The position numbers were made by a program, and so were the translations under genes. From assembly GCF_032813545.1 (NCBI RefSeq), contig NZ_CP136520.1, positions 4,830,001-4,894,000 on the forward strand: a stretch of DNA of 64,000 nt. The letters run 5' to 3'. Source of the DNA: Nodosilinea sp. E11 (GTDB lineage: Bacteria > Cyanobacteriota > Cyanobacteriia > Phormidesmidales > Phormidesmidaceae). This document shows positions 38,822-64,000 of this stretch, in pieces. The notes beneath the pieces were generated by a model. It saw only the letters and a list, made by a program, of their open reading frames with translations, made no database searches and was not told the DNA's origin. Positions within the stretch are counted from its first letter, which is position 1; the number at the start of each line of letters is the position of its first letter.

Positions 38822-38952
38822 CGTTTTAATTACGGGCTACACTTTGGGTTAGTTTGGGGTTAGTTTGGGGCGGCTTAGAAGGCTAACGCATACCCAGCGC
38901 TTTCCCCGGCTGCTGCTGATTTTTGTTGCCCTATAAGACTGCCACCATTGTG

Positions 38953-46050: not shown

Positions 46051-46126
46051 ATAGAAGAACAAGGAATAGGTTTGGTTTCACTCTATGATTCGATATCTAT
46101 TGCTCAAAAACTGATGAATCAAACCC

Positions 46127-49371: not shown

Positions 49372-49577
49372 GGCACTAATTCTTCTTCTTGAGATACAGT
49401 GGCGAGACTAAAAGTAGTCGGTTTGGCGCAGCCAAGCATCTGACCACAATTCTGATTACCCAGACGCATAAACCGCCCAAGGCCTACCCAATAGCCCCAC
49501 CAAAAAGACAACGTAATCATGCTGTAAGCCGTTGATTGACCCTTTAAAGCAGTTTCCAAAACCGGCTGGTAGCTCAC
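49368..49577 (-). CDS. Small coupled protein of unknown function (69 aa)
   Basis: A 69-residue frame locked into the operon by 4-nt overlaps at both ends: GTG start inside GTGA with the stop of the upstream GT2 gene, and TGA stop inside ATGA with the start of the next GT2 gene. Two such overlaps are unlikely by chance for a non-coding gap. The product has one aromatic-rich hydrophobic segment, STAYSMITLSFWWGYWVGLG, likely a membrane helix at about residues 15-34, then a GNQNCGQMLGC pair of cysteines. No family is recognised. It could be a small membrane partner of the glycosyltransferases. An alternative is that the frame is a remnant of a longer 5' or 3' end of a neighbour. Confidence 0.55.
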   Translation of the reverse strand: MSYQPVLETALKGQSTAYSMITLSFWWGYWVGLGRFMRLGNQNCGQMLGCAKPTTFSLATVSQEEELVP

Positions 49578-50791
49578 GAGTATTGCCTCCGGATGGCTTC
49601 ACTGCGTTGCTGCGATCGCCCATATTCTCCGCAGAGACCGACTACCCCGCCCCATAGCTCCGCCAAAATCATTTTGGGCGACAGCAGATGCTGGCCAGAC
49701 AGGCTTTGCTGCAACTGCCAGAGCTGATCTTGAACCCACCAGCCAATCAAGCGGCGCAGGCGCGATCGCATCGCTGGGTCAGTTTGCATTGACTTCACGA
49801 CAAAGGCCATAAAGCCCAGCCCCCAGGTCCAATACTGGTGGCGCAACTGACTGATTTCGCGGCGATGCTGATGGTAGACCGCATACTGCGGTTCATAGAC
49901 CAGCGGATGCCCCGCTCGGACAACTCGATAAAAAATATCGAGATCGCCACCGCCAGGCAAGGGCTTGCCCGTATCTAGCGCTTCATCAAAGCCGCCTAGG
50001 TCTAGCAGCACCTGCCGCCGAAAGGCCATATTGCACCCTGCCCCAAAAATACCGGCCCCGCAGGGGTACAGGGGGTTATGCGACAGCTGCTGGCCATAGC
50101 GAATTTTCTCAAAGCCACGGCCAAAGCCACCCCGCTGCTCAAATAAAATTTGGGCTGGGGTCTCTAGCTCGTAGGGCAGCACCAGGCCGGTAATCGCTCC
50201 GGCATCGGGGTTTTCGGCCCAGGCTTCTTGCCAGCCTCGCCACCACTGAGAATCAACCGTGACATCATCATCTAAAAAGGCGAGCCAGTCGGTGGTGGCG
50301 GTGTGTAGGGCACAGTTGCGAGCAAAGTCTAGGCCAGCCTTGGGCTCGCAAACGTAGCTCACGGTGGAAAAGGTAGCCACCACAGACTGGGTGCGATCGT
50401 CGCTAGGGGCGTTATCGACCACTAAAATTTCAAATTGGGTACGGTCGTCTGCACTCTGCAAAGGCACTAGGGTTGCCAGCAGCCGTGCCACATTATCGGG
50501 CCGATCTTTGGTGCAGATGGCGACCGTGAGGCTGGGGCTAGCGGTCAGGGCCACAGGCGGTTGCAGGTCTTCCCGCAGGCTTTCTTGCAACAGCTTAGGG
50601 CCAAGCTCGGCGGCAATCCAAGTCTCTAGCTGGGTGGGACTCAGGGTGCAGGGGGTGGGTACGGCCTTCAAAATGCGCCCCACCAGCCGATCGCGGCGGC
50701 GCAGCACGAGCGCCACGCCGGTTTGCTCTGCCGATAGCGTCAGGGTGGGTAAGGATTGGGTAATGTCTAGCTGGACGACAGGGTAGGACAT
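49574..50791 (-). CDS. Glycosyltransferase family 2 protein with N-terminal extension
   Basis: About 405 residues. An N-terminal extension of ~85 residues (VVQLDITQSLPTLTL, then VGRILKAVPTPCTLSPTQL) parallels that of the 46934-48268 protein. The GT2 domain follows with LTVAICTKDRPDNVARLL, ILVVDNAPSDDRT, LAFLDDDVTVDSQWW (D-D-D metal site) and GGGDLDIFYRVVRAG (ED-like catalytic region). ATG 50791 is preferred over GTG 50800. The stop overlaps the start of the 69-residue ORF by 4 nt. It lies 44 nt after the ABC transporter stop. Confidence 0.88.
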   Translation of the reverse strand: MSYPVVQLDITQSLPTLTLSAEQTGVALVLRRRDRLVGRILKAVPTPCTLSPTQLETWIAAELGPKLLQESLREDLQPPVALTASPSLTVAICTKDRPDNVARLLATLVPLQSADDRTQFEILVVDNAPSDDRTQSVVATFSTVSYVCEPKAGLDFARNCALHTATTDWLAFLDDDVTVDSQWWRGWQEAWAENPDAGAITGLVLPYELETPAQILFEQRGGFGRGFEKIRYGQQLSHNPLYPCGAGIFGAGCNMAFRRQVLLDLGGFDEALDTGKPLPGGGDLDIFYRVVRAGHPLVYEPQYAVYHQHRREISQLRHQYWTWGLGFMAFVVKSMQTDPAMRSRLRRLIGWWVQDQLWQLQQSLSGQHLLSPKMILAELWGGVVGLCGEYGRSQQRSEAIRRQYS

Positions 50792-50835
50792 AAGAATCAC
50801 GCTGAATAGATAAAAACGGGCCTAGGGGCGATGGC

Positions 50836-52629
50836 TCAAGAGGTGAGCAGGGAGTTTTGCCGACCGTGCATTTGACTAAAGAGCCCACCCTGGCGCAACA
50901 GGCTATCGAGGTTGCCCTGCTCGACCACCCGACCCTGCTGCATAACGGCAATGTGATCGGCCTGCTCAATGGTGTCTAACCGATGGGCAATCACAATCAC
51001 GGTGCGATCGCGGCTAAATAGCTCTAGGGCCTCCTGAATCAGCTGCTCAGAGATGCTGTCGAGGGCATTGGTCGCTTCATCTAAAATCAACAGATCGGGG
51101 TTGCGCACGATCGCCCGAGCCAGGGCGAGGCGCTGACGCTGGCCCCCTGATAGCCGCATACCGCGATCGCCCACCGGGGTGTCATAGCCCTGGGGCATCT
51201 GCTGAATAAATTCGTGGGCGTGGGCCTGCTGCGCGGCGGCTATAACCTCGTCGCGGGTTGCATCAAGCCGTCCGTAGGCAATGTTGTCGGCCACGGTGGC
51301 GTTAAAAATATGAATATCCTGGCTGACGATGGCCATTCGGGCGCGCCAGTCTAACAGGCTGAGGCTGGAGAGCGATTGCCCATCGACCCAGATCGTCCCC
51401 GCCGATGGGTCGTAAAAGCGGCAGATTAAGTGAATTAGGGTCGATTTGCCCGCCCCCGATGGCCCCACTAAGGCCGTTGTCTTGCCCGCTGGAATGGTTA
51501 ACGAAACCCGGTCGACTGCCGGATTGGGTTGGGTGGGGTAGGCAAAACTCACGGCTTCTAGGCGCAGACCTTGCTGAAGGCCATGAAACGGCATGACGCC
51601 AGTTTGTAGATAGGGCTTGTCTTGGGTGTCTAAAAACGTGAATACATCGTCGATTGACCCAGAAAGAGACTGAAGACCATTGCGATAGCTATCAATTAGC
51701 TGCATCTGGGGCTGTAAGCGGTACAGCATAAACAAAAAGGTGAGCAGGGCCGGCAAGAAAGTGCGATCGTACTGTACCGACAGCACCAAAATCGCTAGCA
51801 CCAGTAGCGCTGACAGCACCTCATAGAGGGGGTGCACCGTGCTTGAGAGGGCATTGAGCCGCAAAAAGGCCTGCTGCACTTGTTGTGACTTGTGGTCAAA
51901 GGTTTGCTGTTCGTGATCTTCTCGACCAAAGGCGCGAATGGTGCGCATACCCACCAGCCCTTCATACATGCGAATGCCCAAGTCCGCATTGGCTTGTACA
52001 GCTTGCTGGCCAAGCCGGGTGGTGTAGCGCGTCACCCACTGCACCACGATCGAAATGGCCGCCATCACCACCGCGATCAGCAGGGTGAGCCGCCACGAAA
52101 TCAGCAGTAGCAGCGTGGCATAGACCACGGTGGTGCAGATCGTGGTGATCAAGCCAATCAGCTTAGACAGGGCTTCTCCCGTTCGCCAGGTTTCTCCGGC
52201 CAGGGTGTTCATCAGCTTGCCAGAATCCTGGGTTTCGAGGTAGTCGTAGCCTACCCGCAGCAGTTGCTGAAAGACCCGCGACCGCAGCCGATGGCTGATG
52301 TGTGACTGCAACCAGGCTGACAGCAGGTAGTTGCTGTAGCTGAGCAAATTTTTGAGCAAAATGCAGCCCATGATCAGCGCTGGCAAGACCCAGATGCGAT
52401 CGCGCGCCGCAATTCTATCCATCAGCCGAAACAGGGTTTGCATCAGGATGCTGCCTTCTGCCGGCTGGACGGTGTCTTGCATCAGGCTTTGCAGCACTGG
52501 AATAAACAGGCTGATGCTCAGCCCTTCAAAGATTGAGGCCAGCATTCCTAACAGGACAATGGCGGGGATCGCCCAGGGATAAAGCCTGAGTAAGGGAAGT
52601 AAGCGCTTGACCACGGTCACGTCTTTCAT
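50836..52629 (-). CDS. ABC transporter with fused membrane and ATPase domains (type I exporter half)
   Basis: A 597-residue half-transporter. Six membrane helices at ~17-320 (type I exporter fold) precede the ATPase, which has Walker A GPSGAGKST, Q-loop VSQDIHIF, signature LSGGQRQRLALARA, Walker B LLILDEAT, D-loop NALD and H-loop IVIAHRLDTI. It is expected to dimerise. Among relatives are MsbA-like lipid flippases and polysaccharide/lipid-linked-oligosaccharide exporters, so flipping a lipid-linked glycan is a fair inference here. The start ATG 52629 is supported by a 4-nt overlap (ATGA) with the upstream glycosyltransferase stop. The longer open frame to 52749 is antisense-free but not family-like. 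Confidence 0.9.
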   Translation of the reverse strand: MKDVTVVKRLLPLLRLYPWAIPAIVLLGMLASIFEGLSISLFIPVLQSLMQDTVQPAEGSILMQTLFRLMDRIAARDRIWVLPALIMGCILLKNLLSYSNYLLSAWLQSHISHRLRSRVFQQLLRVGYDYLETQDSGKLMNTLAGETWRTGEALSKLIGLITTICTTVVYATLLLLISWRLTLLIAVVMAAISIVVQWVTRYTTRLGQQAVQANADLGIRMYEGLVGMRTIRAFGREDHEQQTFDHKSQQVQQAFLRLNALSSTVHPLYEVLSALLVLAILVLSVQYDRTFLPALLTFLFMLYRLQPQMQLIDSYRNGLQSLSGSIDDVFTFLDTQDKPYLQTGVMPFHGLQQGLRLEAVSFAYPTQPNPAVDRVSLTIPAGKTTALVGPSGAGKSTLIHLICRFYDPSAGTIWVDGQSLSSLSLLDWRARMAIVSQDIHIFNATVADNIAYGRLDATRDEVIAAAQQAHAHEFIQQMPQGYDTPVGDRGMRLSGGQRQRLALARAIVRNPDLLILDEATNALDSISEQLIQEALELFSRDRTVIVIAHRLDTIEQADHIAVMQQGRVVEQGNLDSLLRQGGLFSQMHGRQNSLLTS

Positions 52630-53789
52630 AGAGCATTTTCCCTGGTACCAAAGTTGAGGGGCTGAGGTTGAGCTAGCGTTTGGCGAGCTAGGGCAGAAAT
52701 CAGCCAATGAAAGCCGTTGCCTACTGCCAATAGTAATCTCACTTCCCAAAGGACAGTATGCGGAGCCTTAGGTAACTCTAGGGGTAGGGGCTGAGTAGAG
52801 CGATCGTGGCGGGGCCTCTCTGACCATTGGGCCATCCCCCAACCCCAAAGACTTTTTAAGGTCAGCTGGTAAAGCCCTAGCCGTATCCAGCAGGTGAGCG
52901 GATCGGCTTGGATCGCCTGCCGCAGCCAGGTCAACGTCGTCGAGTAGTTGTGTCCCCCGTTGCTTTGGTGGGCGAAGTAAAAATATAGGTTGCTGGCTGA
53001 AAGGCGAAACAAGAAGTTCGGCAGCGTGGGGTAGCGTTGACGCACGTTGGCCATTACCAGACTGTGCGATCGCGCCATCTGCCGATAGTCCTTAGACATA
53101 CTGTTCAACAGTTTGCGGTAGCCTACCGAAAAGGTGGGCACAGCGCGAAACTCAAACTGCTCAGCAATACGCAAAAATAGGTCCCAATCTTCGCAGCCCT
53201 GGGCATTTTGAGCACGGAGATTGCTGCTATAACCTCCTACCGCATTGAGGCAGCTACGGCGAATCATAGAGGCGCTGGCATTGCCAATAAAATTGTGGCA
53301 AATCAGCGTTTTATACACATTGCCCTCAATGGTGGCTGCTCTTAGGCCCCCCGTAGGAGTTGAGACCTCATCGATATCGACTGACCAGGCATATACCAAT
53401 CCAACCGATGGAGGCGAGGTGGCAAAGATCTCGACCTGTTTTTCAATGTGCTCAGGATAAAAAATATCATCGGCATCAATGGGAGCAATTAACTCCCCGG
53501 TCGACCGTTCAATACCGAGGTTTCGAGCCGCCGCAACTCCAGCATTGTTTTGTTGCAAAAGCTTGACTCGTGAATCTGCTGCCATATAGTTGTTTACAAT
53601 GGCTGCTGTCCCGTCCTGAGAGCCATCATCAACCACCAACACTTCTAGTGATTGATAGGTCTGAGTCAATACAGAGTCAAGGGTTTGAGCAATAAAGTGT
53701 TCGGCGTTGTAGGCCGGAATGATCACCGAAACGAGCGGATGACAGCAGCAGTGGTCAGTCGGCAATCGATTGCCTAATGGATTTTGCAT
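52626..53789 (-). CDS. Glycosyltransferase family 2 protein
   Basis: A 387-residue GT-A enzyme: VSVIIPAYNAEHFIAQTLDSVL, VLVVDDGSQDGT, AARNLGIERSTGELIAPIDADD (D-A-D-D metal site) and GCEDWDLFLRIAE (catalytic ED). The C-terminal third has helical hydrophobic pieces. It is coupled to the downstream ABC transporter gene by an ATGA overlap, so the exporter and this transferase are made together. About 48 bp separate it from the flavoprotein gene upstream. Confidence 0.88.
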   Translation of the reverse strand: MQNPLGNRLPTDHCCCHPLVSVIIPAYNAEHFIAQTLDSVLTQTYQSLEVLVVDDGSQDGTAAIVNNYMAADSRVKLLQQNNAGVAAARNLGIERSTGELIAPIDADDIFYPEHIEKQVEIFATSPPSVGLVYAWSVDIDEVSTPTGGLRAATIEGNVYKTLICHNFIGNASASMIRRSCLNAVGGYSSNLRAQNAQGCEDWDLFLRIAEQFEFRAVPTFSVGYRKLLNSMSKDYRQMARSHSLVMANVRQRYPTLPNFLFRLSASNLYFYFAHQSNGGHNYSTTLTWLRQAIQADPLTCWIRLGLYQLTLKSLWGWGMAQWSERPRHDRSTQPLPLELPKAPHTVLWEVRLLLAVGNGFHWLISALARQTLAQPQPLNFGTRENAL

Positions 53790-53837: not shown

Positions 53838-55325
53838 CTATTGGAGGTCAGAGGCTAAAACTGTGTTGACTGAGACCTGTTTGTTTTGTCGCTGGTTCCA
53901 CTCCTCGGTCGTAAAATCTTCCTGGTACGAACGCTCAGTGTTGATATTCCAAAGGTCGTGGGTTTCCCCCAGAATGTTCCGCACTGCTAGCATCGCTGTC
54001 AGCATAGAGTGATCTTGGTTATTGTATCGGTGCATACCGTTACGTCCTACCGTTTGCAGGTTGTCAAATCCTTCTATATACTCCTGCAACACTTTGAGGT
54101 GCCGCTTGTAGTCGCCATCATAAACTGGGTAGGCTTTGCGTTGCCGAATCACGACCCCGTCTTCCACATCCTTACGGGCAACGCCCAGGTCTAGGGTGGC
54201 AATCTCTTGGGTAGCTAGCTGAATCAGGTCGGCGTCGCTCATGTCCCAGATTGCATCCCCTTCGCTGCAAAAATACTCCATGCCTAGACAGGTTTTACTA
54301 GAGTCGGGCACCATTTCAGGGCTCCAGTTTTTGAAGTTTTGGATGCGCCCCACCTTAAACTCTGGACTGTGGATATAGAGCCAGTTATCGGGAAATAACT
54401 GATCTTGATCAATAATCAAAGCAACAATCAAAAAATCTCGGTATTTCAGCCCACGAGCGGCGTCTAAAACTGCCTGCGGCGGTGGGGGGTCGAGCCGATG
54501 TACCAGGGCCGAGACTGGCATTGAGTTAATAAAGCGATCGCCTACAAACCGCAGCGTTTCCCCACCCTGTTGGGCCACTACCGCCGTAATTCGACTACCC
54601 TCTCGTTCAAGGCGGGTCACCGTAGTGTTGAGATGTACCGTAGACCCTTGCTGCTCAACCTTTTCCTGACAGCGTTCCCACATCATGCCTGGGCCTAATC
54701 TGGGGTAGTCAAACTCTTTGATTAAACTTTTGGCATTTTGGCTACCAAAAACGGCATTGATTACCGCCCGTTTGAGCGACATATCCTTAATTCGTTGGGC
54801 TGCCCAGTCAGCCCGAATTTGATTGCAGGGAATGCCCCAAACCTTTTCGGTATAAGTCTTAAAAAAAATCTGATAGAGGCGTTCCCCAAAGCAATCGGTC
54901 ACCCACTCTTCAAAGGTTTCCGGCAATTTAGAAGGGTTTAGGTATTTGCTCAGCTTGGCTTTTAGATAACTGATCAAAATGAGAAAGCTGCGGCCCAGAC
55001 CTAAATTCTTGAGAGTTTTGGTGAGAGAAAGAGGATAGTCGTAGAACTTGTTTTCATAATAAATGCGCGATAGCCTAGGCACCTGAATGAAATCATCGCC
55101 TAAGATCTCATGCCAAAAAGCTTGCACCTCGCCTACTTTAGTAAAAAAGCGGTGTCCACCAATATCAAAGCGGTAGTCTTTATAGGTTTCAGTGCGAGAG
55201 ATGCCTCCCACCTTATCGGCTTGCTCTAAAACTACCGACTGAATATTTTGCTTAGCTAGTTCGTAGGCAGCCGTGAGGCCAGCAGGGCCAGCACCAATTA
55301 CAACGACAGGAGATGGTTGAGACAT
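53838..55325 (-). CDS. FAD-dependent oxidoreductase, UDP-galactopyranose mutase/amine oxidase-like
   Basis: A 495-residue flavoprotein. The FAD dinucleotide motif VVVIGAGPAGLTAAYELA lies at ~7-24, followed by VGGISRTETYKDYRFDIGGH (flavin contact GG-x-x-x-T) and a C-terminal FAD motif near GRNGMHRYNNQDHSM. The middle contains YTEKVWGIPCNQI, known from this branch. It is annotated in many genomes as an NAD(P)/FAD oxidoreductase in glycan clusters and resembles UDP-galactopyranose mutase and protoporphyrinogen-oxidase-like proteins. Its context among glycosyltransferases suggests sugar-nucleotide or lipid-linked sugar modification, but the reaction is not fixed. About 100 bp separates it from the upstream GT2 gene. 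Confidence 0.82.
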   Translation of the reverse strand: MSQPSPVVVIGAGPAGLTAAYELAKQNIQSVVLEQADKVGGISRTETYKDYRFDIGGHRFFTKVGEVQAFWHEILGDDFIQVPRLSRIYYENKFYDYPLSLTKTLKNLGLGRSFLILISYLKAKLSKYLNPSKLPETFEEWVTDCFGERLYQIFFKTYTEKVWGIPCNQIRADWAAQRIKDMSLKRAVINAVFGSQNAKSLIKEFDYPRLGPGMMWERCQEKVEQQGSTVHLNTTVTRLEREGSRITAVVAQQGGETLRFVGDRFINSMPVSALVHRLDPPPPQAVLDAARGLKYRDFLIVALIIDQDQLFPDNWLYIHSPEFKVGRIQNFKNWSPEMVPDSSKTCLGMEYFCSEGDAIWDMSDADLIQLATQEIATLDLGVARKDVEDGVVIRQRKAYPVYDGDYKRHLKVLQEYIEGFDNLQTVGRNGMHRYNNQDHSMLTAMLAVRNILGETHDLWNINTERSYQEDFTTEEWNQRQNKQVSVNTVLASDLQ

Positions 55326-55426: not shown

Positions 55427-56476
55427 TCACTTACTAAAAATAGGCCTCTTCAAGCCAAAATAAAAGTGAACTAGGCCAAGGGCGTAGGCTGTGCCGCTGT
55501 AGAAAAAGTAAAGCCAGTGCCAGGGTACTGCGCGTAGGGCGAACCACAGCCCACGGTGGCGATAAAAGAAATGATAGACTGGCCAGTTAAGCCCAAGTAA
55601 TAACCCTGCTATCCCAAAAGCCAAGCCTAGGCTAAAACGCAACCAAAGCGCCGAAAATAGGGTACCAAATAATACGAAGATAAGCGCAATGCTGAGGCGA
55701 GTAACTATCTTAAGGTTAAGATCGTTCGTCATTTGCTGCCGACTTAGCAGTAATTGGGTCCAGGGTAGAGCGCGGTAAAAAAACTCAGCTCGCAATAGCG
55801 ATAGTGGTTGCCAGCGCTTGAGATGCTTAACCTGTAGTGTTTTGCAGAGACGAATGTGGTAACCCTGTTGCTTAAGCCGATAGCCCAGTTCAATATCTTC
55901 AATAGAAGGCTTTTTGTAGTTCTCGTCAAAGCCGCCGACTGTCCAGAAAACATCGCGGCGGATAGCACCACAGGCCCCCCAAAACGTTGATGCCTCTTCT
56001 TGGGCGGTTTGGTGGGTGTAATGGTGAAAGAGGTTTTTATATTGAGATAAAAAGTTGGTTTCTCCTGGGGCGTCGTCGTAGGAGCCAATGGCTGCTGCCA
56101 GATCGGGGGCTTGGGCAAACAGGGTTGCTACTTGGTCAAGGGTGTCAGCCTGGATGGCGACATCGGCATCGACAAAAAACAAAATGTCTCCAGTGGCCTG
56201 GCGAGCACCAATATTTCTGGCGCGGGCTGGTCCACCGGGGGCCGTTGTGCTAAGTACCGTTGCGCCAAAAGTTTTGGCTAAGGTATCAGAGCCGTCAGTG
56301 CAACCGTCGGCCACTACAATCACTTCGGTAGAACAGTGGCTAGGGCGGTAACGATCTAAGCTTTGCAGACAGATCTTGAACGGCAGACCGCCGTTATAGA
56401 CCGGAATAATAATTGAGATTAAGGGGAAGTTCGGAGGCAGCATCGGCGCAACTGTAGGATATATCCGTAGTTTCAC
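55427..56476 (-). CDS. Glycosyltransferase family 2 protein with C-terminal membrane helices
   Basis: About 349 residues. GT-A core: ISIIIPVYNGGLPFKICLQSL, EVIVVADGCTDGS, GPARARNIGARQATGDILFF and VDADVAI (D-x-D); KPSIEDIELGYRLKQQG supplies the catalytic ED. Two or three hydrophobic helices (~240-310) close the protein, as in membrane-bound GT2 enzymes. The GTG start at 56476 has GGAAGAG 5 nt upstream. An in-frame ATG at 56443 is an alternative but has no Shine-Dalgarno. Likely a membrane-associated sugar transferase. Confidence 0.85.
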   Translation of the reverse strand: MKLRIYPTVAPMLPPNFPLISIIIPVYNGGLPFKICLQSLDRYRPSHCSTEVIVVADGCTDGSDTLAKTFGATVLSTTAPGGPARARNIGARQATGDILFFVDADVAIQADTLDQVATLFAQAPDLAAAIGSYDDAPGETNFLSQYKNLFHHYTHQTAQEEASTFWGACGAIRRDVFWTVGGFDENYKKPSIEDIELGYRLKQQGYHIRLCKTLQVKHLKRWQPLSLLRAEFFYRALPWTQLLLSRQQMTNDLNLKIVTRLSIALIFVLFGTLFSALWLRFSLGLAFGIAGLLLGLNWPVYHFFYRHRGLWFALRAVPWHWLYFFYSGTAYALGLVHFYFGLKRPIFSK

Positions 56477-56583
56477 TTATCTCTTCCGATTAAGTTTCCC
56501 AAAGCCGAAAAATAGTTTAGGTCTTTATGGTCAACTTATAAAATCTGAGGATCCGTGTAGCTAAAGAAAAGTTGGGCGATAGG

Positions 56584-57192
56584 TTATCGACCCACTTGAC
56601 TGCCAAATCTACCGACTGCAATGAGAGCAATACCTAATACCACTAAGTTGCCAATGCTGCCTGCTCCCACCTTCAGCATCCCAGTTCGCGTGTTTTGCTT
56701 GGCCATGTTAACCCGCTCATCTAGCAATTGAGCAGCTTGCTGTAATGCCTCTGGCGTTAGATCCGGCGAGACCGCCGCCGGATTAGCGCGAGCGGTTTCG
56801 ATTTGAGTGCGCACTTGGGCCTGTTGGTGGGTGATAGTCGTTAACGTCATGGTCTGAAATTTCAGTGTGTCCCGCACGACTAAAATCCCTGACAGGCTAA
56901 ACCCTACCCCCAGCAATAGGCACAGGAGGGCCAGCTGTTTACGCCAAGAACGGTTATTTAGCAGCCCATAGGTGAGCAGGCTGAGACCGAATAGCAGCAC
57001 AATGCCGCGATCGCCCACCTGTTGCAAGAGGCTAATGCGCCATTGCAGGTCAAGCGGGTCGAGCGGAACCGCCAGAATAGCCACATCTACTAAAAAGCCT
57101 GTTAGACAGGCCAACCCAACGATAATGCTGAGACTTTGACCGGAAGAATATAGAGCCTGAGAACCGCCTTTGCGGACCGGTATATTAGCCAT
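56584..57192 (-). CDS. HpsJ-like membrane protein (cyanoexosortase-associated type)
   Basis: About 202 residues. Three N-terminal membrane helices (~20-44, 60-80 and 85-107) are followed by a ~65-residue extracytoplasmic helical part with TTITHQQAQVRTQIETARAN and LTPEALQQAAQLLDERVNMAK, then a fourth helix at the C-terminus (GSIGNLVVLGIALIAVGRF). The layout and the Q-A-Q-hydrophobic coiled coil match HpsJ and the HpsJ-like proteins found beside cyanoexosortase genes. HpsJ was linked to hormogonium polysaccharide in Nostoc. The precise subgroup is inference. ATG 57192 is preferred over an upstream TTG 57207. It is separated from the PTPA-CTERM gene by ~500 bp. Confidence 0.65.
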   Translation of the reverse strand: MANIPVRKGGSQALYSSGQSLSIIVGLACLTGFLVDVAILAVPLDPLDLQWRISLLQQVGDRGIVLLFGLSLLTYGLLNNRSWRKQLALLCLLLGVGFSLSGILVVRDTLKFQTMTLTTITHQQAQVRTQIETARANPAAVSPDLTPEALQQAAQLLDERVNMAKQNTRTGMLKVGAGSIGNLVVLGIALIAVGRFGSQVGR

Positions 57193-57411
57193 AATCAATA
57201 CGCTCAATAGAGGTGCAAATTACAACGGTCTGCCTATCCTTTTCAGGTTAATTTCAGAAAATCAGGATGATTGAGACTGAGCTAACCCAGATTCCTTGAT
57301 ATGCCTGGGACCTATCCTGCTTGATGTTGGCTGATGTTTCAGGGTAAAAAGCCTAAAGTGTTAGCTTAGCTAGGCCAAGGTCTTTGCCTAATCGTCTTCT
57401 GTAAGCTGTAG

Positions 57412-57597
57412 GTATAGCTATAGCCACTCAGGTTAGGACAGCGCTGTCATTCCCCCAGAGAGCCTGCCCCCGCGAAGGCGTAGGACGAGAATCTACTAGT
57501 CCGTAACTGCTCTCGAATGGATTCCCGTTTTCATGGGATAGACGGACTGGGCTCGTTGTGAGCAAAACGTCCTAATGATGTCGGCTATAGCTATATA
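57412..57597. repeat. Dispersed palindromic repeat, family 1, long variant E
   Basis: About 186 bp. Ends match the family: GTATAGCTATAGCCACTCAG and GGTTAGGAC at the left, GTCCTAATGATGTCGGC and TATAGCTATA at the right. The centre is unrelated to copies A, C and D: it has TCATTCCCCCAGAGAGCC, GACGAGAATCTACTAGTCCG and CATGGGATAGACGGACTGG pieces, suggesting a second element inserted between family 1 ends. Confidence 0.6.
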
Positions 57598-57640
57598 GGC
57601 CAGAGGTTTGCTTGGGTGTTGTCAAACCCAGCTTGGAAAA

Positions 57641-57668
57641 CAGCAGGCAGGCTATGGCCTGCCCGCTG
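57641..57668 (-). terminator. Intrinsic terminator of the PTPA-CTERM gene
   Basis: CAGC-A-GGCAGG and CCTGCC-C-GCTG pair around a 6-nt loop. In the minus-strand direction a TTTTCC run follows the stem. It starts ~32 nt beyond the gene's stop codon. Confidence 0.65.
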
Positions 57669-57700
57669 ATTCAGTAAAATACCCAATCACTACCGATCGC

Positions 57701-58357
57701 TTAGACTTCTACCTCTGTCTCTTGTGTTGACTCAGTCTCCTGTTTGCGCTGGCGTAGGGCCGCTACGCCCATGGCCAGCAAGCCTGGTAGCAGCGCCGGA
57801 GTTGGCACAGTTACTATGCCAATAGAATCAGTACTAGAGCGACCGATTTCTAGAGAGAATAAAGACCCAGTCGCGATGATTGTACTGCTGGCACTTCTAA
57901 CCCGACCCTCTAACAGGCCAGCTAACGTGTAATTGGTGGGTGAAACCATAGTCCCAATAAATTCACTAGAGGCCAAGATATCAACAAAGACCTCCTCACC
58001 GCTAAGAAATAGGCCACTAATGAAATTGATATACCCGCCAGCCCCTGACGGGTTAGTGATGGTTAAACTGCTGCGGTCAAAGGTTAAATCAGTAATTGAA
58101 AGCGTACCTTCTGTGAGACCTATAAATCCTCCGGTTGGAGCACTAGTCCCCGTATTGAGATTAAAGAAGGCCTCATTAAACTGCAACGTAAAGCTGTTAG
58201 GCGTTAAGCCAGTAAGATTGGTAGCCTGGGGGCTAGTGGCTGACAGCTGAAAAGCTCCTGGAGTTAAGCTTGCCGCTTGCACAGGGCTAACAACTACGAC
58301 TTCAGCCGCGATAACCCCAACAATTGCAGCTAGGGGCGCATAGGTTTTTAGATTCAT
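57701..58357 (-). CDS. PTPA-CTERM sorting-domain surface protein
   Basis: A 218-residue secreted protein. Signal peptide ~1-29 (ending PVQAA). The mature beta-rich, Ser/Thr/Gly-rich part has no known enzymatic domain. At the C-terminus is a PTPA-CTERM sorting signal: the motif PTPA at 185-188 (VPTPALLPG), a hydrophobic helix and the basic stretch RQRK near 202-205. In this class the signal is recognised by an exosortase-type membrane protease. Unusually, 13 acidic/polar residues follow the basic cluster (QETESTQETEVEV), longer than many family tails. The cyanoexosortase at 62680-63573 is in the same locus. It has its own terminator and ~260 bp upstream space, so it is probably transcribed separately. 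Confidence 0.88.
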   Translation of the reverse strand: MNLKTYAPLAAIVGVIAAEVVVVSPVQAASLTPGAFQLSATSPQATNLTGLTPNSFTLQFNEAFFNLNTGTSAPTGGFIGLTEGTLSITDLTFDRSSLTITNPSGAGGYINFISGLFLSGEEVFVDILASSEFIGTMVSPTNYTLAGLLEGRVRSASSTIIATGSLFSLEIGRSSTDSIGIVTVPTPALLPGLLAMGVAALRQRKQETESTQETEVEV

Positions 58358-58618
58358 TGCAATCTACCTAGTGATGTAATGTGTACCTCGATCCACAAAA
58401 ATCAGACGTCTACTCTGTCTGTAATTTTTTAAGTGGTTTAGAGCACCCAACCGCTTAAAGGTGACTCGCTAACAGGTAGAAGCACATAAGTAGAAACACC
58501 GGTAGAAAGCAACCATGCTGTGATCACAATGGTCACAACATGAGGATTGCTTTGCATCTACAATTCTATAAAATTTTAAATGAATTTGATCCGACTCAAG
58601 CTCAAGTTTATGACAAGT

Positions 58619-59869
58619 TTATATTGATTTGCGAGGGCTGTCCTGAATTCGAAGCTTTACTTGACTTTCTGAGACATGGTGTTCATGAATGTTTGAATCT
58701 CCTTTGTAGATGTTGAAGCTGTTAAAGTCATGGCGATTGTAAATATCTCTTGCTTGAAAATACCAGAAAATGACTATAATCGGCAGAGCATATTTATCCC
58801 AGGCGATCGCCTTGGTCATGATCAAAAAATTAAATAAGATCAATGAAAATGCTAAGTCTAGACGAGCAAATCGCCAGCAGGTCAAGATGCCTAGGCTGGC
58901 GAATATGGCTAACGCCCACCCCTCTGAGGGTAAGCGGATGACCACCCGATAAAAAACACTCAGGTAAGATACTGAGGGTGGAAATAATAAAAATAAAATC
59001 CCTACAGCTACCGCTATAATCAACAGCTTAATTAGATTTGATCGACTCAAATTAGGCTTAAAATCTTTCAATAAAAACGTTTTGTACAGAAACTCCGGAA
59101 TAACGTAGGCCCAGCCCAGGGTCGATAAAAAGAATAAGCCGTTCTCAATGGAAAAACTAAAGAGAGAGCTTTGAAAACTCGGCATCCAGCGATCGGCGGT
59201 GGCCGTTGCAGGTGCTAAACCACCAAACAACACCACCCAAGCCATAATAGTTAGGGCCGCTCCGGCGGGTAAAAAAAAGCTCAGGCTAGGCCACCTACGG
59301 CCACTAATAGCGCGCGCCAGTTCATGGGCTGCGATCGCGACCGGAAAGGCCAGCATAAACTGGCGGCAGGCGATCGCCAGCACAAACATTACCCCGCTGC
59401 TGATGTGGCGATCGCGCAGATAGAGCACCACGCCCACAAGCCCTAGAAAGGCCGCAATCACATCGGTGTAGAGCCGTCCGCTAAGCAGCAAGAAAAAGGG
59501 AAATAGAAACAACCCTAGGAGCGAAAATATTGGCTTAGTCGTGCCCTGCTTACCCGGCCAGCCAATTAGCCAGGCGATGCCTAGAGACGACAAAAAACTA
59601 ACCATTCGGGCCGCAAAAGGGCCGAGATTAAACAGGTACTCCAACATGCCAAATAGGATAAATGGCACTGGTGTACTGAACTGGTCGTAGTCCTGAATCT
59701 GAGCAAAGGAGGGAATCAACTGTTGGCTAAAGGTCAATGATGTCCGCCAAAAGCCTATTTCGTCATCCCAAAGAGGCCCCTGCAACCAGTCACTGGCTAC
59801 AAATACCATTGAATAGACCAATGCCACTAAAAATATGAAAAGGTAGCTATTTTTGAGTTGAATACGCAT
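58619..59869 (-). CDS. Polytopic membrane protein, putative GT-C glycosyltransferase
   Basis: A 416-residue protein with about ten membrane helices. The first extracytoplasmic loop carries GPLWDDEIGFWRTSLTF, an acidic motif at the place where GT-C enzymes keep their catalytic Asp/Glu. Further on are SGRLYTDVIAAFLGLVGV and FYRVVIRLPSEGWALAI. The C-terminal ~40 residues are polar (HDFNSFNIYKGDS). It resembles mannosyltransferase-like membrane proteins (Alg10/PMT types) only in general layout, so the call is tentative; a polysaccharide polymerase or flippase cannot be ruled out. It follows the GT4 gene by ~300 bp. Confidence 0.6.
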   Translation of the reverse strand: MRIQLKNSYLFIFLVALVYSMVFVASDWLQGPLWDDEIGFWRTSLTFSQQLIPSFAQIQDYDQFSTPVPFILFGMLEYLFNLGPFAARMVSFLSSLGIAWLIGWPGKQGTTKPIFSLLGLFLFPFFLLLSGRLYTDVIAAFLGLVGVVLYLRDRHISSGVMFVLAIACRQFMLAFPVAIAAHELARAISGRRWPSLSFFLPAGAALTIMAWVVLFGGLAPATATADRWMPSFQSSLFSFSIENGLFFLSTLGWAYVIPEFLYKTFLLKDFKPNLSRSNLIKLLIIAVAVGILFLLFPPSVSYLSVFYRVVIRLPSEGWALAIFASLGILTCWRFARLDLAFSLILFNFLIMTKAIAWDKYALPIIVIFWYFQARDIYNRHDFNSFNIYKGDSNIHEHHVSESQVKLRIQDSPRKSI

Positions 59870-60172
59870 TGCTAGCTTGCGATACGAATACGATGATGAC
59901 CCTGGAATTTTAGGGAAAGGACTGGTTACAGGACTATATCCTTTCTCTATCTACTTAGTTTACTAACTACTTAAATGGCCTCTGACAACTTCATCGGTTC
60001 TTTACAAAGGTACTTAGGGGAATAACCGAATGACACGGATACAGCGTTAGCACCAGCATCGAGCATTGCCCCTGGTAAGACATAAATTGCAGCTAGGCTC
60101 CCGATAGGGTTTGGGGCTGGGGTTTAGCGAAAACCAAGCCTGATCCCTTGAGGGGCAGAGTCTGCTGTGCCC
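59870..60172. other. 303-bp gene-free region
   Basis: No open frame or repeat family was recognised. It lies between two genes of the same strand and should carry the promoter of the downstream membrane-protein gene. A T-rich part at 59950-60010 is the only compositional feature. Confidence 0.35.
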
Positions 60173-61303
60173 CTAGACCACCTGAGCCAGCAATGTGCAA
60201 ATGCGCTGGTTGGTGTGCTCTAGGTTAAAGGTGGAGCAGGCTTGGGCTTGGGCAGCGATCGCCATGGCCGCAGCCTGCTCAGGCCCGTGGTAAGTAGCTA
60301 AAATTAGCTCTGCCAGCTTTTGGGGATCGTTGGGTGGGCATAGCCAGCCGGTCTTGCCATGGTCGATCAGCTCCGTAGCACCGCCAGCAGCGGCGGCGAT
60401 CGCCACCCGTTGACAGAGCATGGCTTCAACAATCACCCGGCCAAAGGGTTCGGGAGCCGTCGAGGTGTGGGCGACGAGATCGCAACTCTGCATCAGCGCC
60501 GGAATGTCAGCGCGGAACCCAAGAAAATGGACGCGATCGCCCAGGTTGAGCCGTTGGACCTGCTGCTTCAGCTGAGCGACGTAGTCGTCTTCTCCAAACA
60601 GGGCGTCGCCCACCAGCACCGCCACCACGTCGTCGGGGCAATGGGCCAGGGCCTCAATCAGCACGTGCTGCCCCTTCCAGGGCGACAGGCGACTAAAGTG
60701 GCCGACCACAAAGCGATCGCCCAGCCCCAGCGCCTGGCGTAGGGTGGGGTCGGGGGCCAGGCGGTAGCGATCGGGGCGAAAGCCGTTGTAGACCACGCTC
60801 ACTTTTTGGGGATCTCCCCCGGCGGCAACAAAGGCCGCTTCGCTGGCCTGAGAGTTGGCAATCACCAGCTGAGCGAACCGGTTGGCCAGCCCCACCAGCA
60901 GGCGACAGTTGATGGGGCTAAAGTGCTCAGTCGAAATAATGTCGTGGAGATGGTAAACCAGCGGGCGACGGCTCAAGACGCTGGCCAGTGCACCGACGAT
61001 TAACGCTTTGGGGGTGTTAGCGTAGATTACATCGTAGGCAGCGGCGGCCTGGGCTGTTCTGTAGATCAAGGGCAGCAGCTGCCCTAGGCTGCTTACCCCT
61101 GCCAGCAGGCCACTGTCTTTGCGCACGCCTAGGCCCTCAGTCGCCAATACCGTTACGGGCGTAGCCTGGGCTTCCAGCAGCGTCCTAAACGGTCCGTCTT
61201 GCAATAGGCCAACTGCTCCCGTGGGAAAAGCCAGGACAATATCGGCGAGACAGAGTTCAGCCCCGCCCGGCTGACCGCTTTGATCTAAAAAGAATACGTT
61301 CAT
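60173..61303 (-). CDS. Glycosyltransferase family 4 protein
   Basis: About 376 residues, GT-B. N-terminal FFLDQSGQPGGAELCLADI; C-terminal domain with VVGHFSRLSPWKGQHVLIEAL, VGDALFGEDDYVAQL, VHFLGFRADIPALMQSCDLVA and TAPEPFGRVIVEAMLCQ (E-x7-E). The start ATG 61303 is supported by GGGGAG about 7 nt upstream; longer frames (to 61372) lack this and are not family-like. Retaining sugar transfer in polysaccharide assembly is expected. Confidence 0.88.
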   Translation of the reverse strand: MNVFFLDQSGQPGGAELCLADIVLAFPTGAVGLLQDGPFRTLLEAQATPVTVLATEGLGVRKDSGLLAGVSSLGQLLPLIYRTAQAAAAYDVIYANTPKALIVGALASVLSRRPLVYHLHDIISTEHFSPINCRLLVGLANRFAQLVIANSQASEAAFVAAGGDPQKVSVVYNGFRPDRYRLAPDPTLRQALGLGDRFVVGHFSRLSPWKGQHVLIEALAHCPDDVVAVLVGDALFGEDDYVAQLKQQVQRLNLGDRVHFLGFRADIPALMQSCDLVAHTSTAPEPFGRVIVEAMLCQRVAIAAAAGGATELIDHGKTGWLCPPNDPQKLAELILATYHGPEQAAAMAIAAQAQACSTFNLEHTNQRICTLLAQVV

Positions 61304-61497
61304 AGTCGATCTCCCCAGGGGTGTCGCATTAGGCATACCCGTCTGGTCGTAGTTTGATACTCTTTTGACCACAGGGGCTGTTGACCACAGGGGCTGTCAC
61401 CAGTCGCGGTGGGCCAAGGAGCAGGCCACGGTTGAGTACAGGCCGCTTTCCAGGGCCTTTTGGTGTACCAGCCCAGCCCAACCCTCTGATTGCTGGT

Positions 61498-62637
61498 CTA
61501 CGACAGCAAAACCTGCTTAACCTGCTGGGCAATATCGGGCCAGTTAAACTGAGTTGCGGCATAGCGGCGACAATCTGCACGACTGGGCAATGGAATGGTT
61601 TGGTTCAAAATTGACTCTAAAGCAATGGTTAAGGCTTCACTACTAGGAGACTGAGTGATTAACTCAGGGGAAAAGCCGGAAATGACGTCTGGCATGCCGC
61701 CGACGGGCGTACAGAGGGCCGGAGTGCCGCTCGACAACGACTCTAGCAAAACTAGCCCAAAGCCTTCGAGCGTTTGACTCGGCATGACCGTTAGGTCAGC
61801 GGCCTGGTAGGCAATGGGAAGCTGCTTGTCGGGTAAAAACCCAAGAAACTTAACTTGGTCGCTAAGGCCCAATTCGGTGGCCTGACGTTCTAGACTTTCC
61901 CGGAGAGGACCTTTCCCTGCGATCGCCAGCCATAGATCTGATTTTTGAGTTTTAAGACCAGCGATCGCGTTGAGTAACTTGTCTAGCCCCATACGATGCA
62001 CCAGACGACGAGGGGTAAACAAAATAAACCGGTCTTGGGGCCAGCCGAGGATTTCACGAGCCTGTTGGCGAGAAAGCGTATTTTGAAACTGTTGAGTGTC
62101 TACCCCACCAGGGATGATGTGAATCTTTTCCCAAGGGATGCTGAACTCGCGATGCAAGATTTCACCGAAGGCTTTGCTGAGCACAATAAAGCGATCGCAC
62201 CGACGATAAACCACGCCCTCTATCTGTTGCTTAAACCAGACACTCGCTTTACCAGCTCCTTCTGCTTGACTTTCAATGGCCCACGGTCCGTGAAAGCTGC
62301 AGGTTACCGGCACATCTTTGGGTAGATGAGGCAGTGTCGCCAGGCCATTTAAGGCAAAGTGAATATTGACCGCGTCAGGCTTAGACAAAGCTAGGCCCTT
62401 AGAAGCCTGATAACCAGATAGAAGACGGTGATGTAGCGATTGTGCTGGATCCGCTAAATTGTTGAACTCAATGGCTTTATCCCCGCTGTCTTTGGGCAGG
62501 CCTAAACCAAAAAGAGAAATTTTGGTATCTAACCGACTGAGCGTATAGATAAGTTCGTAAATATAGCGATCTAAGCCGCCTGGTGCGCTAGGAAACCAAT
62601 TATTGCCAACAATAGAAATCAAAGGAAAATTTTCCAT
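61498..62637 (-). CDS. Glycosyltransferase family 4 protein
   Basis: A 379-residue GT-B enzyme. N-terminal VGNNWFPSAPGGLDRYIYELIYTL; C-terminal nucleotide-sugar domain with FTPRRLVHRMGLDKLLNAI, IAGKGPLRESLERQATELG, VKFLGFLPDKQLPIAYQAAD and QTLEGFGLVLLESLSSGTP (E-x7-E, Glu-Gly-Phe form). It is ~42 bp after the exosortase stop, so probably in the same transcript as the exosortase and the partial GT4 gene upstream. Confidence 0.88.
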   Translation of the reverse strand: MENFPLISIVGNNWFPSAPGGLDRYIYELIYTLSRLDTKISLFGLGLPKDSGDKAIEFNNLADPAQSLHHRLLSGYQASKGLALSKPDAVNIHFALNGLATLPHLPKDVPVTCSFHGPWAIESQAEGAGKASVWFKQQIEGVVYRRCDRFIVLSKAFGEILHREFSIPWEKIHIIPGGVDTQQFQNTLSRQQAREILGWPQDRFILFTPRRLVHRMGLDKLLNAIAGLKTQKSDLWLAIAGKGPLRESLERQATELGLSDQVKFLGFLPDKQLPIAYQAADLTVMPSQTLEGFGLVLLESLSSGTPALCTPVGGMPDVISGFSPELITQSPSSEALTIALESILNQTIPLPSRADCRRYAATQFNWPDIAQQVKQVLLS

Positions 62638-62679
62638 ATAGTTTTTAGTTTAAAAATAAAACCCAGATCTAAAGTATAG

Positions 62680-63573
62680 CTAAAGCTTGCATAAACTAGA
62701 CTTACTCCCATTTTCTCTTTTGCAGATTGCCATGCTCACATAATAAAAAACTGTGAACATAGCTCCAGAAATAAGTTGGCTGCCTAGGCCAGTATGCCAA
62801 AATCGAAAAGCATCATCACCCCAGTAAACCACTGAGTACGTCAAAAGAATAATTCTGGGAACGTTGATGACTAGAGCAATGACTACACCTAGCAGGATAA
62901 GTAGCCCTAACTTTCGGGGTCTAAGCCTGTAAAAAATCCCCATTACGAGACTTACCCCGGCTAGAATCATCGCCATACTAAATCCACTACAGCCATCGGC
63001 AATATCAACCCCCTTAGAACCGATCTGGATAACATTGCCTGCTACAATAGCAGGCTGTCCCATCAGGCTTAGCACTAAACCACTAATGCTAGCCATCAGC
63101 CGCTCAAGGGCATAGTTGGGAATTAACACCTTGCCAAGGGTATATCCCAAGTCAAGATACTTGGGTAAAAGTCCAAAGAAGATGAGCAGTATAGAAACCC
63201 AATAGTTGCGAATAAATTGATTGCCGAAAGTTGCCAATGAAACCCCAATCAGGGCAGTGCTCCAGGTAATTGCCTGTAGTGAATAGGATTCAAAAAAAAT
63301 AAAATACATGACAACTGCTCCAATAATTAGAGCATAGCCGACGATTTGATCTTCACTGTCAGATTTGAGCATTAACAGCTCATTTTTTTGAGTAAAAAAT
63401 TGATAAAGTCCTAAAGCAATAAAGCATACATTTAAAAAAACACTAGACGAACCCATGATTACTCGTTCGGTTATTAAATATATCCACAAAGGGATATAGG
63501 CCATGCCTGGAATGAGGCCAATAAAAATAACGCTATTATGCCAAGATCTAAAGGGAAATAATAGTAAATTCAT
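62680..63573 (-). CDS. Cyanoexosortase (exosortase/archaeosortase family membrane protease)
   Basis: A 297-residue protein with about eight membrane helices. The three conserved catalytic residues are visible in order: Cys195 in VDIADGCSGFSM, Arg240 in VINVPRIILLT and His260 in FRFWHTGLGSQ. This matches the exosortase/archaeosortase superfamily and, by size and motif spacing, the cyanobacterial branch. It is thought to cleave C-terminal PEP/PTPA-type sorting signals and attach or process the mature protein at the cell surface. A candidate substrate (57701-58357) and an HpsJ-like protein (56584-57192) are in the same locus. The subclass (A, B or C) cannot be settled by eye. It starts one base after the stop of the partial GT4 gene. 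Confidence 0.9.
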   Translation of the reverse strand: MNLLLFPFRSWHNSVIFIGLIPGMAYIPLWIYLITERVIMGSSSVFLNVCFIALGLYQFFTQKNELLMLKSDSEDQIVGYALIIGAVVMYFIFFESYSLQAITWSTALIGVSLATFGNQFIRNYWVSILLIFFGLLPKYLDLGYTLGKVLIPNYALERLMASISGLVLSLMGQPAIVAGNVIQIGSKGVDIADGCSGFSMAMILAGVSLVMGIFYRLRPRKLGLLILLGVVIALVINVPRIILLTYSVVYWGDDAFRFWHTGLGSQLISGAMFTVFYYVSMAICKRENGSKSSLCKL

Positions 63574-63574
63574 T

Positions 63575-64000
63575 TCATATAGTATTTAACGGCTTTCTTG
63601 TTATCGCTGACGTGTTATCAGGTGTCAGCTGCTGATAAACAGCCAAGGTTTCCTGAACAAGGCGGTCAACTTTCAGCCACCCCAAATTCTTTTTAGCCTG
63701 TTGCTGCCAAAACTCTAGCTTTTTTTGATCACCTAACAAATCAGCAATGACCGTTGCCAGCGCATCTACGTTCTGAGCTTCAAATAGAATGCCTGCCTTG
63801 CCCCGCTCTACGACCTCAGGGATACCATCTACATTACTGGCAATTACAGCGCAACCTGCCTCGCGTGCCTCAGCGATCGCTAAACCAAAAGGCTCACGAT
63901 GAGAAGCCAGCACAAATATGTCAGAGGAAAGTAAATATTTCTGAGGCTCTGGTTGAAAACCTTCAAAGTGAATACGGTGGGTAACCGATGTTTGATTGGC
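63575..64000 (-). CDS. Glycosyltransferase family 4 protein, 5' truncated by the window edge
   Basis: Only the C-terminal ~141 residues are present; the frame is open to the right edge (29 further codons before the first GTG). FEGFQPEPQKYLLSSD, then FVLASHREPFGLAIAEAREAG (the E-x7-E motif of retaining GT4 enzymes) and CAVIASNVDGIPEVVERGKAG identify the family. One base separates its TGA from the exosortase ATG, so the two are co-transcribed. Confidence 0.8.
   Translation of the reverse strand, partial: ANQTSVTHRIHFEGFQPEPQKYLLSSDIFVLASHREPFGLAIAEAREAGCAVIASNVDGIPEVVERGKAGILFEAQNVDALATVIADLLGDQKKLEFWQQQAKKNLGWLKVDRLVQETLAVYQQLTPDNTSAITRKPLNTI

Follow-up and report, generated by a model that had tools for sequence, protein, structure and literature searches.

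Does a protein-sorting enzyme that lies among polysaccharide genes work with them, or does it only share their location? This question is raised by a 64,000-nucleotide stretch of Nodosilinea sp. E11 (NZ_CP136520.1, positions 4,830,001 to 4,894,000), hereafter called the window (C7:4830001-4894000 in a genome of 7 contigs and 6.1 Mb). Its right-hand end encodes a cyanoexosortase C (CrtC), a substrate with a PTPA-type C-terminal sorting signal (PTPA-CTERM) and an HpsJ-like membrane protein (HpsJ_C). We consider it probable that these three form a sorting module that is part of an exopolysaccharide synthesis and export island. Each part belongs to a known family, and systems of this kind have been described before, though sparsely in the papers searched; what is new is a sorting module that sits within a glycan island whose content varies between strains while its chromosomal site stays the same. 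All three genes are found on the minus strand, where the first-pass annotation of the sequence had placed them:

62680-63573, minus strand: cyanoexosortase C (CrtC), a polytopic membrane enzyme of the exosortase family, 297 amino acids (aa) (NF033464, 286.2 bits; PF09721, 116 bits)
57701-58357, minus strand: PTPA-CTERM substrate (NF033465, 47.4 bits)
57731-57808, minus strand: PTPA-CTERM sorting signal
56584-57192, minus strand: HpsJ_like_C, given the NCBI name 'cyanoexosortase C-associated' (NF050019, 226 bits)

Profile searches placed all three proteins above the curated cut-offs of the NCBIfam models for this system (225 bits for NF033464, 29 for NF033465 and 140 for NF050019), which bears out their assignment by the first-pass annotation to an exosortase-type protease, a secreted protein with a PTPA-type sorting signal and an HpsJ-like membrane protein. 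The residues named as catalytic, Cys195, Arg240 and His260, are invariant in an alignment of 20 CrtC sequences that includes the window copy, and are among 28 columns invariant across this alignment, the window copy being included by definition. They fit the C-x-G, N-x-x-R and H-x-x-x-G motifs of EpsH (XrtA), which is also linked to exopolysaccharide in the portion of the EpsH report cited here (PMC1569441). The window enzyme differs from EpsH in falling below the TIGR02602 cut-off (60.3 of 105.6 bits) and in its sorting signal. That signal matches at aa 184-208 of the substrate, which is built of a putative signal peptide (read by eye), a mature domain of ~150 aa, the PTPA motif, a C-terminal helix (191-216 in the structure model) and a basic tail.

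The three parts are inherited together. In one set of 194 genomes of the class, counted with kinship left in, CrtC occurs in 41 and HpsJ_C in the identical 41, the window genome among them, and PTPA-CTERM (E <= 2e-5) occurs in those 41 plus one genome that is 79% complete; by genus, each of the three is present in 27 of 109. A collection of 61 named CrtC loci, in which near relatives of the window are possibly not included, gives a similar picture at closer range: of the 55 loci whose CrtC reaches 220 aa or more, 42 have an HpsJ gene that ends no more than 400 bp from where CrtC starts, and a PTPA-CTERM frame is present in the fetched DNA of 43 of the 61. CrtC and HpsJ distances correlate (r 0.69 over 44 pairs, two of them from the window genome), a value that none of 2000 permutations reached and that still contains the effect of shared ancestry. 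The conclusion that sorter, helper and substrate belong together is therefore supported, since CrtC and HpsJ_C share the same genomes and PTPA-CTERM is found in 42. Model matches and co-occurrence, the absence of which the first-pass annotation had named as grounds for abandoning its proposal, were both found.

CrtC is also linked to glycan genes. Profiles were seeded on the window genome's own proteins of glycosyltransferase (GT) families 4 and 2 and on its Wzc-, Wzy-, sugar-transferase and Wza-like proteins, and matches at E <= 1e-10 within 8 kb of CrtC were compared with those in 40 control regions placed by hand in 11 CrtC-bearing genomes. At least one glycan gene was present at 29 of 33 CrtC loci with full flanks versus 6 of 40 control regions, and at least two at 28 of 33 versus 1 of 40. 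Outside these 33 stand one locus where no CrtC frame was called (L173) and 27 loci with short flanks, 13 of which have at least one glycan gene. In other bacteria, too, exosortases are often tied to exopolysaccharide genes, as the first-pass annotation had noted. A comparable case is the cyanoexosortase B (CrtB)/PEP-CTERM system of Nostoc punctiforme, in which the exosortase lies in a polysaccharide locus with a Wza-type gene and is required for adhesion to hormogonium polysaccharide, as described in the part of that study used here (PMC12188702). As far as the same part goes, that organism has one CrtB and 35 predicted PEP-CTERM proteins, whereas in the window genome CrtC is paired with PTPA-CTERM, three exosortases are present and no PEP-CTERM protein scores above the cut-off.

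The glycan genes and the module share an island of ~42 kb, with ~20 kb on each side of crtC. Its left neighbour is a ClC-channel gene, and the conserved genes to its right include a GTPase gene (C7:4914613-4916202; GTP-binding N-terminal, middle and MMR_HSR1 domains) which we take to be of the HflX type. Among 26 genomes of the genus, a CrtC match (E <= 1e-15) is present in 18. Both flank genes lie within 60 kb on one contig in ten of these genomes (G000, the window genome, and G134, G148, G176, G208, G209, G217, G218, G219 and G228), and CrtC is located between them in ten of ten. In G210 and G211 CrtC lies within 3 and 7 kb of one flank gene. Apart from G224, discussed below, the remaining genomes have the flank genes and CrtC split over several contigs or yielded no match to one of them.

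The flanks are conserved and the contents are divergent: flank proteins are 89-99% identical among the ten islands, CrtC between island types 28-48%. The first type, seen in seven genomes, has CrtC proteins 77-98% identical to one another, and the second (G228) has a CrtC 47-48% identical to those of the first. The window genome and G209 share a third layout, in which the Wza-like gene is close to the opposite end; between these two, Wzc (61%), Wza (65%) and HpsJ (62%) are better conserved than CrtC, at only 33%. Compared with the first type, the window has 28-30% identity in CrtC and 24-25% in Wzc. Most island proteins of the window are unmatched or 23-41% identical in G134, G176 and G148, the exceptions being the FAD (flavin adenine dinucleotide) oxidoreductase (79%, G134), the right-end sugar transferase (71-74%) and an ABC exporter (50%, G148). 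In these three genomes and the window genome, 9 of 14 PTPA-CTERM matches (E <= 2e-5) fall inside the island (8 of 11 in G134, G148 and G176, and 1 of 3 in the window genome). Because gene content differs between the islands, exchange is favoured, and the comparisons suggest a surface-glycan cassette that is exchanged together with its protein-sorting module; fast change in place could still account for single genes.

O-antigen and capsule loci, which switch between strains, likewise have a fixed site and conserved flanks with very different glycan genes within. Unlike those loci, the island described here holds a sorting enzyme, its partner and substrates inside the variable part. A variable exosortase island was not reported in the literature searched on exosortases, exopolysaccharide, horizontal gene transfer and Nodosilinea (partly by title); a search for 'PTPA-CTERM' yielded no paper, and among the matches listed for 'HpsJ' all were medical or unrelated by title. 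With a glycan island and an exosortase that differ jointly between strains while the site is constant, the genus provides a natural swap experiment: CrtC or HpsJ alleles moved from one island to another would tell whether the enzyme's fit is to the glycan, to HpsJ or to nothing but the PTPA tail.

Besides the module, the following features of the island and its left edge lie in the window:

38923-41568, plus strand: ClC channel with CBS and USP domains, left edge of the variable island (89-99% identity, 10 genus genomes)
44461-46062, minus strand: GT-C (PMT_2) membrane glycosyltransferase (PF13231, 63 bits)
49574-50800, minus strand: GT2 glycosyltransferase (PF00535, 62 bits)
50836-52749, minus strand: ABC exporter (PF00005, PF00664)
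52626-53789, minus strand: GT2-like glycosyltransferase, assigned by eye, which served as a GT2 seed in the glycan-gene searches
53838-55325, minus strand: FAD-dependent oxidoreductase of the PRK07208 family (NF005548, 693 bits; 79% identity to the G134 island gene)
55427-56476, minus strand: GT2 glycosyltransferase (PF00535, 86 bits)
58619-59869, minus strand: membrane protein, GT-C-like at best, without a confident family (sub-cut-off matches only)
60173-61372, minus strand: GT4 glycosyltransferase (PF00534, 128 bits)
61498-62637, minus strand: GT4 glycosyltransferase (PF00534, 138 bits)
63575-64000, minus strand: GT4 glycosyltransferase that runs past the window end (366 aa in the genome; L016:575-1675)

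Past the window end follow glycosyltransferases, a Wzy-like protein (25.6 bits, below the Pfam cut-off), an ABC exporter, two sugar transferases and Wzc-like and Wza-like proteins. The surroundings of the module had been described as GT2, GT4 and GT-C enzymes. The GT2 gene at 55427 and the GT4 genes at 60173 and 61498 stand above their Pfam cut-offs; the GT-C call at 58619-59869 does not (DIE2/ALG10, 17 bits; AZOBR_p60025, 26 bits, both below cut-off), and a PMT_2 GT-C protein is present further along the same island at 44461-46062. Ten CrtC loci also carry a large surface protein (~860 aa in most) between crtC and a second hpsJ; the copy that was scanned, L148:12347-14923 of Nodosilinea nodulosa PCC 7104, has DUF4347, choice-of-anchor Q and bluetail domains. 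No such protein was seen in the window island.

How might the module operate? Sortase-like Cys/Arg/His motifs characterise the exosortases, for which cleavage and transfer of the substrate were proposed, as stated in the part of the EpsH report cited here (PMC1569441); by extension we infer such a role for CrtC. The substrate would be exported by Sec and kept in the inner membrane by its PTPA helix and basic tail. CrtC would then cut at the PTPA signal by means of Cys195, Arg240 and His260, and would either release the substrate or hand it over, the acceptor belonging to the glycan pathway made alongside or to the outer surface. HpsJ_C, with its long helical stalk, may act as a partner that keeps CrtC, the substrate or the glycan machinery in one assembly. 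Since the chromosomal site is constant and the island at it varies, strains that possess the island would carry their own CrtC/HpsJ/substrate set along with their own glycan genes.

Several observations weigh against this picture. Curators of the NCBI models may already have had the association in view, in which case the co-occurrence is partly built in, and at three Nostocales CrtC loci the fetched DNA holds no HpsJ (whole genomes were not searched). In the window a distance of 5.5 kb separates CrtC from HpsJ, and the gene of the substrate, that of a membrane protein and two GT4 genes intervene, which is no tight operon; named relatives usually have PTPA-HpsJ-CrtC or HpsJ-CrtC-PTPA. The window CrtC is itself unusually divergent, its nearest-neighbour identity of 38% being the lowest of 57 CrtC (median 70%), unlike the window HpsJ, which is 60% identical to its nearest relative in the same set and 62% to that of G209. 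CrtC is missing from 8 of the 26 genus genomes: in G224 (99% complete) the flank genes are 292 kb apart without it, and in G220 and G223 both flank genes are kept, on different contigs, so a cell can do without CrtC. In the common island type CrtC does not track its most variable neighbours; between G134 and G176 it is 85% identical, but the glycosyltransferases close by drop to 53-68% and a membrane protein of 464 aa to 46%. Finally, the sorting module need not adjoin glycan genes, since a second CrtC island of the same genome (described below) has none within 8 kb and four of the 33 full-flank loci (L158, L163, L166 and L168) are likewise glycan-free.

Some of these points would be expected if CrtC were a general sorter that processes all PTPA-CTERM proteins of the cell, and if its position among glycan genes reflected hitchhiking with an often-exchanged island, without a glycan acceptor. 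PTPA-CTERM matches do occur elsewhere in the genome, CrtC genomes contain at least 1-11 of them each (with up to 40 candidates scored), glycan-free CrtC loci exist, and Wzc and Wza differ between island types as strongly as CrtC does. The excess of glycan genes at CrtC loci (29 of 33 versus 6 of 40) and the location of 9 of 14 PTPA-CTERM matches of four genus genomes inside the island argue the other way, and we give this explanation slightly less than an even chance. We would say the same for a CrtC that acts as a protease only, freeing the substrate to the periplasm or medium, perhaps for non-covalent binding to the glycan, with HpsJ as a helper. No acceptor gene is identifiable at the locus, and the Nostoc CrtB study, in the part used here, leaves release or attachment of substrates open (PMC12188702); against it, the glycan linkage suggests some physical coupling, though without demanding covalent attachment. 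One pathway for a glycan-linked or surface-anchored protein, as the first-pass annotation suggested, is accordingly upheld in so far as the parts go together and are linked to glycan genes; a glycan-linked protein product is not borne out, given the glycan-free CrtC loci and the PTPA-CTERM matches elsewhere.

It is unlikely, in our estimation, that CrtC specificity is tied to the glycan through an acceptor supplied by its own island, such as a lipid-linked glycan intermediate. Were this so, a glycan switch would bring a switch of exosortase and HpsJ while the PTPA signal remained constant. Between the window genome and G209, the CrtC identity of 33% is near that of the Wzy-like protein (39%) and some glycosyltransferases (25-39%); other glycosyltransferases reach 50-82%, and Wzc, Wza and HpsJ 61-65%. 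Counting against such a tie is the G134/G176 pair, in which CrtC is 85% identical and the glycosyltransferases are 53-68%, and simple linkage would yield the same broad pattern. That the window CrtC is degenerating and a second copy (L018) does the work is very improbable: it has the lowest nearest-neighbour identity of 57, but its frame is open, it carries the 28 invariant columns (by definition) with the catalytic residues among them, and the second copy is divergent too (nearest 43%) and adjoins a substrate below the PTPA cut-off (22.3 of 29 bits).

With a CrtC module embedded in a glycan island as the preferred reading, the individual parts can be considered more closely. Across 63 genomes of the family no full-length match to the window CrtC exceeds 38%, and two partial matches (~140 residues) reach 40 and 44%; in a tree of CrtC it sits on a long branch (1.8) without a resolved position. 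A search of 72,556 plasmid records gave no CrtC match at E 1e-5, and the best PDB sequence relative had an E of 0.17.

The HpsJ gene more likely starts at the ATG at 57192 than at the TTG at 57207, because the corresponding Met is nearly invariant in 47 sequences. The structure model of HpsJ_C (predicted local distance difference test, pLDDT, 89) has four helices, 22-45, 54-81, 86-141 and 152-204, two of which are more than 50 aa long; we take these two, 86-141 and 152-204, for membrane helices with a long hairpin stalk. This stalk is probably periplasmic, because the loop between helices 2 and 3 is basic (by eye). Likeness to PDB structures was discarded as a guide to function, the best matches (Foldseek E 0.08; VIA Z <=12.5, to designed helical proteins) being within the range of common helix arrangements, and a weak sequence match to IcmK (E 0.016) was left unused.

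Neither Pfam nor NCBIfam gave a match to the substrate beyond its PTPA signal, and a profile search of PDB sequences returned nothing below E 0.1. Its mature domain gave a low-confidence, beta-rich model (pLDDT 68), and a known fold was rejected since no structural match was significant (Foldseek best E 0.058; VIA best Z 4.7). Single linkage groups the substrate with 21 others from CrtC loci, at 19 of 61 loci, and in a leave-one-out test of this family the window protein scored 26.5 bits versus 11.8 for the best of 500 shuffles. A protein outside the cluster scored a close 24.8 bits, and L137, one of six members tested, failed its own leave-one-out (3.9 bits, below shuffles); for this reason the assignment of the window substrate as a distant member of that family is likely rather than firm.

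Separate, perhaps stronger, expression of the substrate had been proposed from its own terminator and promoter space, and one feature was found to match:

57647-57666, minus strand: terminator-like hairpin 3' of the substrate gene, of a kind no more frequent here than in shuffles of the region

When extended, its stem folds at a z of -2.8. For 56400-60300 the shuffles predict 4.4 sites of this kind, against 4 observed, and no promoter-like match occurs in the 261-bp gap upstream of the substrate, so that separate expression is not supported beyond the hairpin. In the EpsH/PEP-CTERM system most substrates are single-gene units after long intergenic regions, according to the cited portion of that report (PMC1569441).

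The smallest CrtC pairs come from Nostocales. At L158, L163 and L165 the CrtC (372-383 bits) lies just after a PTPA-CTERM mini-protein of 82-110 aa, with a short mature part that has two Cys (L158:9421-10858, L163:9362-10882 and L165:9642-10855). Two of the three loci have no detected glycan genes within 8 kb, and L165 has two GT2-like genes. These pairs offer a small system for biochemistry.

Three exosortases of the window genome score above the PF09721 cut-off: the window CrtC, a second CrtC and a CrtA-like enzyme. The second CrtC (328.3 bits) lies in a compact island of ~3 kb (L018:7841-10871; C7:3351841-3354871) that reads substrate, HpsJ-like protein (116 of 140 bits), HpsJ_C (172 bits) and CrtC, between ammonium transporter (Amt) and amine oxidase genes (by eye). 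Its substrate has a deviating signal, VPSPLLIPGL. A clean empty site for this island did not turn up: G212 has the same neighbours (Amt 86%, amine oxidase 94%) with ~4.7 kb of other genes between them, and six other genomes do not have Amt next to the oxidase in the DNA that was fetched. The count of PTPA-CTERM proteins called for by the first-pass annotation gave three matches that exceed the cut-off, a fourth, next to the second CrtC, that does not reach it, and three weak ones (E >1). One of the three above the cut-off, L020:5865-6170, is a short frame that matches positions 1-16 of 26 and is possibly a broken substrate gene. The CrtA-like locus (L017:10131-12109 and 18615-19367) holds an enzyme below its own cut-off (90.6 of 150 bits), an HpsJ_like_A and, by eye, wza- and wzc-like genes; a protein 6-8 kb from the enzyme, matched weakly by PFE-CTERM (14.8 of 24 bits), may be its substrate.

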